Assembly: GCA_009869945.1 (NCBI GenBank)
Contig: WIXG01000101.1
Span: 62,001-126,000 of the forward strand
Direction: 5' to 3'
Source: Mesaphorura yosii
Taxonomy: Eukaryota > Arthropoda > Collembola > Poduromorpha > Tullbergiidae
DNA: 64,000 nt
A program made the position numbers and the translations under genes. Position 1 is the stretch's first letter. Every line of letters begins with the position of its first letter. This document shows, piece by piece, positions 13,131 to 15,231 of the stretch. The notes under the pieces were generated by a model that was not told the DNA's origin, did no database searches, and saw nothing but the letters and a program-made list of their open reading frames with translations.

Positions 13131-15231
13131 ATGGTTTTTGCAGCGATTTTCCGTAAACCCAAGGAAGAAAGTAAGTTGTGTTTATCCACGAAGGGAAAAG
13201 TACTCTTGAACTTGACAGGTCCGTTCTGTCTTGGCTAAAAAACTAAAGTCAATAATGTGACCGCTTCAGTTTTCTTACCCATCTTAGTAATCTTGGCCAA
13301 CAAACAACGAAACCCAACGACTGCATAAAGAACACGAGCAAGTTTCGTAGAATAATCGACAAGAAGGAAGAGATCACGAATTTATTCAACGATTGTTGAA
13401 TTGGCGTTAAACGTCCGAAGTAAATATTATTACGCCTCTCTATGAACAGGAACAGGACAAAATATGAAACTAAGAGCGGAGATCGTGGTCCTCCAGGTTC
13501 TGTGGAAGTAAGTTCCTGTTCAAAAAACATTTAACTGTGCTTGGAAGGTGCTATCTCATTGCTCAACGTCAATATTCCCACTTTTTTCAGACATGTTTGA
13601 CGCAAACCTTAAACTAATGGAAATGAGCGATCTACTTCTCCATCCTGACCACACAAAAGAGTTATACGCAATGCCGAAGGCGAGGATGGCGTGTAAAATC
13701 CGGCATTTCATCGCTCTTGTCCTAAGCGTCGGAATATCCAGCCTCCTCTTTTGCATGTACAGCCGTGATCAGCCGGTCAACTTCCACCAATTTGTAACGC
13801 AAACCCATAAGCAATTTGAAAGTTTGAAGGTAGGTTTGAAGGATCCTCGGAATTCAATTAACCCTCCTCTTTGCGTAATCCTGAAATGTCTTATGAATGC
13901 TTCTCAGGAAAACTTACAAGTGGGGAGCAACGATAAGTCATTTGATATTGAGGAGAAGTACTTGAGTTTGCTTGGTTTCACCCGAACTGAGGGCACGATG
14001 CCTGTGAACAGCAGGCCTCTTAGTGGATCCGCTTCGGCGATTCCAGGAAGACCGAGTACTCATGATGTGGGCTCGTCGAAGCAAAACGGAACTCTTCCTT
14101 TCGTAATCATTTCTTCCGTATCGCCTGGACAGTTGAATCAAGTCATCGACTTCATTAAGAACGTGCAGACTGTTCTCCCTTTGAACTCAATGGTACTGTG
14201 GTGTCTGGACACGGTCGTCCCAAGCACTCAGGAGTCGGATTTCTCATTAGCAATGCGGAGCTTGTGCAATTCGTCGAAATGTTCTGTGGAGAAATTCAAC
14301 TTCGAAGATTATCCCGTAAGTACTGAATCGTAAATCATAAATCTACTGCGCATGGCAATTAAAACCAGATTGCTTCAATGTATAGGATCACGTGAAAGAC
14401 ACAAGCATCAGAGCTTACAGACCCCTCATAATTCAGGTAAGCTATTCTTCGAGGAGTCTCAATGGCTTACAAAACTTCGTTTTGCTACGCCTAAATCTGC
14501 TTTAGCAAGTTTGGGCAAAGCAAACAAAGTTTGGCGTAGCCATTGAGACTCCTCGCTATTCTTATTCCTACAAACTATGCAAACATTGATTTCGGAGGAC
14601 TGCTAATACCTTGCATTTTCTACAGTCGATGCTTGACAGAGGTGGTGGCTGTGTCCTCTGGCTCGACATTGACCGGCGGCTGCTACCGTTTACTAAGGAC
14701 ACAATGAACGAATTTCTCTCACTGGGTGAAAGCCAAGGAGTCGTGGCTTGGTCTTCTGGGCACCCGACTTCAACGCTTGCCCACCCCAAAATGTTCTCGT
14801 ACTTTAAGACCAACGTGGAGAATTATTATTTCCATCGAATGGTTGACCCGGCCGAATTACTGGTCTGCAACACTCAAAAGGTCCTTTCCAAAGTAAGCTA
14901 CTTGAAAGATTTCAGACTTTTTTAATAACGCGGTGGCGGTGTATGTCGATGAATGCCATTAATATTTTGGGTATAGGTGATGCTGCCGTGGGTCACGTGC
15001 AGTCTGATTACGAAATGCATTTCGCCGTTCGGTGCTCAGTCGAGCGGCTGCCGCTTTGACAAAAAACCGCTGTTCAGGTATTCGGGCTGTCACGCCTATG
15101 ACTCGGCAGCCCTCAACCTCGCACTGGGAATGGCGTTCCCTCTTCACCAGCCGTACATCTCCAGAACATCGATATCAATCTCGGCTCAGTTGATACCTGT
15201 TCTCAATCAAACTAGCTCTTACGTAGCCTAA
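13131..15231 (+). CDS. Type II membrane protein with a DUF1647-like glycosyltransferase-type lumenal domain
   Basis: Exons: 13131-13170, 13591-13829, 13908-14315, 14386-14436, 14626-14892 and 14977-15231 (1260 nt, 419 aa). A short cytosolic N-terminus is followed by one hydrophobic anchor at about 52-70 (FIALVLSVGISSLLFCMY), giving type II topology. The lumenal part has a Rossmann-like start (LPFVIISSVSPGQLNQVIDF), VLWCLDTVV, a DXD-like motif in LWLDIDRRLL (Asp260/Asp262), and a C-terminal cysteine block (VTCSLITKCISPFGAQSSGCRF..YSGCHAYDSAALN). That block matches the C-terminus of DUF1647-type proteins known from nematodes and arthropods. By family these are putative Golgi nucleotide-sugar transferases with unproven substrate. 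The first exon (13 codons) is joined in phase, but the next ATG (13593) would also serve. Intron 4 carries a palindromic MITE (14450-14555). Confidence 0.8.
14442..14563. mobile_element. Palindromic miniature inverted-repeat element (hAT-like MITE) with 8-bp target-site duplication
   Basis: The element occupies 14450-14555 (106 bp). Its first 18 bases, cgaggagtctcaatggct, are the exact reverse complement of its last 18. Pairing continues with few mismatches to the centre (tgct-tt-agca at 14498-14507), so the whole element is one long hairpin. It is flanked on both sides by ctattctt (14442-14449 and 14556-14563), an 8-bp direct repeat that reads as a target-site duplication. An 8-bp duplication is typical of hAT-superfamily insertions. 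It carries no coding sequence, so it would need a transposase in trans. It sits wholly inside intron 4 (14437-14625) of the DUF1647-like gene and should be spliced out. The perfect arms suggest recent insertion. Confidence 0.85.

Follow-up and report, generated by a model that had tools for sequence, protein, structure and literature searches.

The window, that is, the whole 64-kb stretch of DNA that was analysed, carries a 106-bp insertion within an intron. This insertion is flanked by an 8-bp target-site duplication, its ends are found at at least 13 loci of the genome, and its interior bears a deletion at a short microhomology. We assign it as a non-autonomous copy of a P-like transposon, with membership of the P superfamily probable but not proven. 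The insertion is real and is an ordinary non-autonomous transposon, which the original prediction misassigned to the hAT superfamily and described as more perfect than it is. The features are located as follows:

13548..15231, plus strand: 3' part of the host gene as read, an open frame across three introns
14437..14625, plus strand: host intron, 189 nt, GTAAGC...TTTCTACAG, with GT-AG ends and in-frame exon junctions
14442..14449, plus strand: left copy of the target-site duplication CTATTCTT, identical to 14556-14563
14450..14555, plus strand: 106-bp non-autonomous transposon copy, probably P-superfamily-like, with ends common to at least 13 copies
14450..14467, plus strand: left terminal inverted repeat (TIR) CGAGGAGTCTCAATGGCT, 100% complementary to 14538-14555
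14500..14505, plus strand: deletion junction, CTTTAG in the window copy; the longest copy has CTATAG at each of the two deletion ends
14538..14555, minus strand: right TIR, 100% complementary to 14450-14467
14556..14563, plus strand: right copy of the target-site duplication CTATTCTT, identical to 14442-14449

The element and its host intron

The outline of the element agrees with the original prediction, in which an 18-nt inverted repeat at both ends, an intact 8-bp duplication and a geometric centre at 14502/14503 had been described. The element had also been called perfectly palindromic and paired with itself over its whole length, which does not hold: without gaps only 37 of the 53 facing positions match, and 18 of these are the terminal arms. 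The imperfect interior is what would be expected from the family, because the two ends of its longest copy (C455), compared as inverted repeats over 72 nt, agree at ∼82%. The self-similarity of the window element is nevertheless far above chance (local self-alignment score of 56; the highest score among 1000 dinucleotide shuffles was 27). Its predicted RNA fold has an energy of −59.7 kcal/mol (z −12.2), and 0 of 200 shuffled sequences folded as well. When transcribed within the intron, the element is predicted to form a long hairpin; the feeding of a small-RNA pathway, put forward in the original prediction, is unsupported. The 106-bp element is short and non-coding and has two TIRs and a duplication, which are features of miniature inverted-repeat transposable elements (MITEs).

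The element was correctly placed in a splice-competent intron, as it lies within 14437-14625 and the flanking exons join in one frame. Of the host-gene exons as read, one ends at 14315 and the following ones span 14386-14436, 14626-14892 and 14977-15231, with the frame ending at a stop at 15231. Without the element and one copy of the duplication, the host intron would measure 75 nt, and the neighboring introns measure 70 and 84 nt. The insert begins 13 nt inside the 5' splice site (the left flank includes the duplication) and both splice sites are intact, so the intron is still spliceable. The host protein gave a weak match to DUF1647 (PF07801; E 5e-5, 23.5 bits, under the curated cut-off of 25.7).

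A repeated family in the assembly

The element had been described as a non-autonomous cut-and-paste insertion from a repeated family, and a TIR search of the genome bears this out. The assembly that was searched comprises 93.0 million bases in 1127 contigs, and the copy counts, obtained from pattern and similarity searches, are lower bounds. A search for cox1 gave no match. When up to 3 mismatches were allowed, a 25-nt right-end pattern was found at at least 13 places genome-wide (0 for the reversed control). Allowing up to 2 mismatches, the search with the 18-nt TIR gave at least 25 matches, 23 of them in the 13 family copies (3 for the reversed pattern). Two TIR matches, on C59 and C274 (2 mismatches each), were not accepted as family members, as they have no partner and are within the number given by the control. 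Similarity searches also recovered 11 of the 13 copies, while C125 and C184 came from the patterns. Copies with both ends measure 53, 70, 87, 106, 110, 125, 193, 332, 347, 348, 589 and 1727 bp; the left limit of the 110-bp copy (C28) is uncertain, and the C157 copy has no left end.

The copies differ mostly in structure. Three of them (C175, C356 and C157) share one internal junction, corresponding to a form of about 347 bp, and the right ends of the latter two are 97% and 94% identical to that of C175. One deleted form of about 347 bp was thus copied as such, which is the observation in favor of a true MITE subfamily, in which the 106-bp form itself would have been copied many times. However, the 106-bp junction was found at no second locus among the copies, each copy outside this group of three has its own structure, and the at least 13 copies as a whole do not form one homogeneous set. 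We therefore regard a 106-bp MITE subfamily as quite improbable. Two of the copies have further particularities. The C157 copy (L014:3880-4414) is left-truncated and is flanked on both sides by long inverted arms that share 48 15-mers, so that it appears to be nested in another palindromic repeat. The C436 copy (L018:4493-4562; 70 bp) is nearly all right end, its first 18 nt being the TIR and its last 42 nt the family right end.

The exact TIR string (15 nt) did not occur in the literature library that was searched, and the family seems not to be present there under its sequence. A stretch of 17 nt of the TIR occurs in two IMG/VR contigs; a good second TIR is absent from both, and the matches were read as due to chance.

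Origin of the 106-bp structure

The C455 copy (L012:4760-6486) is the longest in the family, with 1727 bp. In it the hexamer CTATAG occurs only at positions 51 and 1672, a spacing of 1621 bp, which is equal to 1727 minus 106. The window copy, which has CTTTAG at its position 51, corresponds to the left 50 nt and the right 56 nt of the C455 copy joined at CTATAG. In alignments with C455, agreement with the left end is 95% over the left 61 nt of the window copy, and agreement with the right end is 90% over its last 59 nt; the two stretches overlap at the junction. Since the spacing of the hexamers equals the difference in size, the structure is that of a deletion between two 6-bp direct repeats and one later change, or of these two events in the reverse order. 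Judged from these alignments, the window copy is a product of microhomology deletion and not a homogeneous MITE.

Relative to C455, the window copy has one mismatch in the left 52 nt and 5 in the 56 nt of the right end, and it differs from the right-end consensus of the family at 3 of 58 positions. The original prediction had argued for a young family from perfect arms. The arms are imperfect, and this argument falls away; the relative youth of the window copy is instead suggested by its intact duplication and by the few differences from its relatives.

The C455 copy contains an open frame of 102 codons on the minus strand, beginning 282 bp inside the right end, with a match to the THAP domain (PF05485; residues 4-78, E 3.2e-9, 37.9 bits, cut-off 23.9). 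A decayed version of this frame, with stops, is present in the C503 copy; the THAP domain itself was thus found in 1 of 13 copies. For three other open stretches of the C455 copy, nothing significant was found in Pfam, and none of the viral contigs that were searched encodes a relative of the THAP frame.

Target-site duplications and an empty site

Duplications were surveyed in 12 copies, with C157 left out. A perfect 8-bp direct repeat flanks six of them (window, C47, C175, C356, C503 and C125). The remaining copies have imperfect repeats, with 7 of 8 matches in C455, 6 of 8 in C121, C926 and C436, 5 of 8 in C184 and 2 of 8 in C28. At lengths of 4-7 and 9-12 bp a perfect repeat was seen in none of the 12 copies, and at offset control positions 0 of 744 comparisons reached 7 of 8 matches. 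A 9-bp duplication of the Mutator-like type was also considered and rejected, as 0 of the 12 copies is perfect at 9 bp. The mismatched duplications are compatible with age or, in the case of C28, with decay of the left end, and they count against a uniformly recent family.

For one family member an empty site was identified. The joined flanks of the C125 copy match C70:144135-144426 (81% over positions 21-306 of 360), and C70 is continuous where C125 has the 53-bp element and one copy of the duplication, with one target base differing. The repeat that contains the C125 copy was read as mariner-like from its translated pieces. The empty site at C125/C70 is proof of insertion.

These results bear on the reading of the element as a microRNA-like or other conserved host hairpin in the intron, for which a sequence that is single-copy genome-wide and conserved at the same site in related species had been named as the deciding case. 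Such a hairpin would agree with the strong fold (z −12.2) and with the presence of the exact 106-bp structure only once. However, the same ends recur at at least 12 other loci, 8-bp duplications and the empty site of a related copy mark insertion, and at gathering scores Rfam gave no match in the 64-kb window. The host-hairpin reading is already contradicted, and we consider its probability negligible. The window was also found to contain no tRNA.

Probable assignment to the P superfamily

The full-length form of the family probably carried a THAP-domain, P-element-like transposase. Two features of the P superfamily were found, namely the 8-bp duplication (perfect in 6 of 12 copies, with 7 of 8 matches in one further copy) and an N-terminal THAP domain, in the C455 copy. 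The available parts of the literature establish that P-superfamily elements can have 8-bp duplications, a THAP transposase and relatives that are internally deleted or of the MITE type (PMC1562414, PMC7776569, PMC10983969). The RNase H-like catalytic domain with its GTP-binding insertion and the P-type helix-turn-helix (HTH) domain are present in none of the copies in the assembly; because all copies are internally deleted, this absence does not decide P membership. The TIR of Drosophila P begins with CA. As far as the available text of PMC10983969 goes, that of Pdre2 does as well. The family TIR starts with CG, and this counts against P, although CA is usual rather than defining. For the Drosophila P target motif, GGCCAGAC, the C455 copy matches at 6 of 8 positions and the other copies at 1 to 5 of 8.

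The original prediction of a hAT-type MITE was based on the 8-bp duplication, which hAT elements share, and hAT transposases are frequent in this genome (at least 39 matches to PF05699). The target sites do not fit this assignment. The target rule of hAT-Ac elements is nTnnnnAn, and 0 of the 12 left flanks fit it in either orientation. Seven duplications match at 7 or 8 of 8 positions, and one of them fits the Buster rule, which is nnnTAnnn in the accessible portion of PMC3517528. In addition, the longest copy has a THAP domain, and the CGAGG ends of the family are unlike the CAG(G/A)GG of the hAT MITE Mar, as given in the same excerpts (PMC3517528). The original prediction proposed to look for a full-length hAT element with the same ends; the contigs that carry family copies have none of the at least 39 PF05699 matches listed. 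A hAT origin is therefore very unlikely.

A different superfamily, THAP-bearing or unclassified, with 8-bp duplications would accommodate TIRs that start with CGAG and not CA. THAP domains occur outside P elements, for instance in Kolobok, another THAP superfamily; Kolobok makes TTAA duplications, which have no counterpart in the family. Other contexts of THAP domains are mentioned in the available part of PMC10027918. Another example would be a Mutator-like Phantom or Spectre element with an acquired THAP domain. According to the accessible text of PMC6446971, Mutator-like duplications are 8-11 bp long; Phantom has duplications of 8-10 bp and TIRs of 18 bp upwards, and Spectre has duplications of 8 bp. 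However, the domains given there for Mutator-like elements are FLYWCH, SWIM, C2H2 and PHD fingers, and THAP is not among them in that text (PMC6446971). We judge such an origin unlikely and prefer the P-like assignment.

An autonomous partner was searched for with the element, the C455 copy, the TIR, the right end, THAP, PF21787, PF12017 and PF05699, and none with a catalytic domain was found. At E up to 1, the genome gave three matches to PF21787 and five to PF12017, and neither C455 nor any other locus of the family was among them. The original prediction had suggested a family that is perhaps still mobilisable. The assembly contains at least 13 copies, 10 of them with their own structure, and because no copy with these ends has a catalytic domain, present mobility is unsupported.

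The genome also contains P-type genes outside the family. C524 (L047:7523-9853, G000:C524:40942-43272) contains a P-type transposase gene that gave matches for HTH, RNase H, GTP-binding and the THAP9 C terminus and has one in-frame stop; the gene is close to the contig end, so one end may be missing. C156 (L048:3744-5479) contains a diverged gene with a partial THAP match and, after it, matches to the RNase H and GTP-binding domains of the P type. No family TIR (≤5 mismatches) lies within 10 kb of the P-type transposase regions of C524, C156 and C43, and no convincing TIR pair was found around C524, C156, C61 and C185. The other THAP frames (C28, C185, two on C61, C156) are only distantly similar to that of C455; their best local match to it is 39% over 59 residues (C185). 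In the whole assembly, the hAT dimerisation matches (at least 39) stand against few P-type matches (3 to PF21787).

Comparison with known systems

The closest parallels are P elements with lost interiors, here compared as described in the available parts of the sources. In Anopheles gambiae, P-MITEs and P subfamilies keep the ends of a larger P-type element, with the middle lost or replaced, and they share with the present family the 8-bp duplications and, in the master element, the THAP domain (PMC1562414). The families there comprise 5 to 310 copies each, of 205 to 2450 bp, compared with at least 13 copies, down to 53 bp, in the family described here (PMC1562414). Masters with TIRs of 27-31 bp are present in the mosquito, whereas no master was found in this assembly, and the copies here are mostly of different structure (PMC1562414). 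Drosophila P and zebrafish Pdre are similar in having 8-bp duplications, internally deleted forms of many sizes and a THAP transposase (PMC7776569, PMC10983969). Deletion derivatives of Drosophila P, however, measure 0.5-2.8 kb, and the TIRs are 31 bp long in Drosophila P and 13 bp in Pdre2 (CATACCTGTCAAC), compared with CGAGGAGTCTCAATGGCT in this family (PMC7776569, PMC10983969). Mar, a Drosophila hAT (Buster) MITE, is also non-coding, with 8-bp duplications and short TIRs; its TIR, CAG(G/A)GGTAGGC, and its target, nnnTAnnn, do not fit the family (PMC3517528).

Mechanism and implications

We infer cut-and-paste transposition by a THAP transposase, which would have bound both ends, excised the element and joined it to target DNA cut with an 8-bp stagger. 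The middle would have been lost before the jump, or else in place when the gap left by an excision was repaired incorrectly; faulty gap repair at the donor site is the likely source of the deletion, and internal deletions of this origin are known for P elements. It is conceivable, though doubtful, that the family transposase can mobilise elements of ∼50 to 125 bp and that the 53-, 87- and 106-bp copies jumped at their present size. Among the copies found there is no sign that the 106-bp form has spread as such. If these small elements did transpose, the cis requirements would amount to approximately the 18-nt TIR and a motif of the right end around AAGTTTGGCGTAGCCATTGAGACTC. This would be much smaller than what is known for P, and movement of the 53-106-bp copies at their present size would mean that the ends needed by a P-like transposase can be unusually small.

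In summary, an 8-bp duplication alone is insufficient for assignment to hAT, and a plausible but wrong assignment is corrected here. The family shows the stepwise decay of a larger transposon into tiny hairpins by microhomology deletion.
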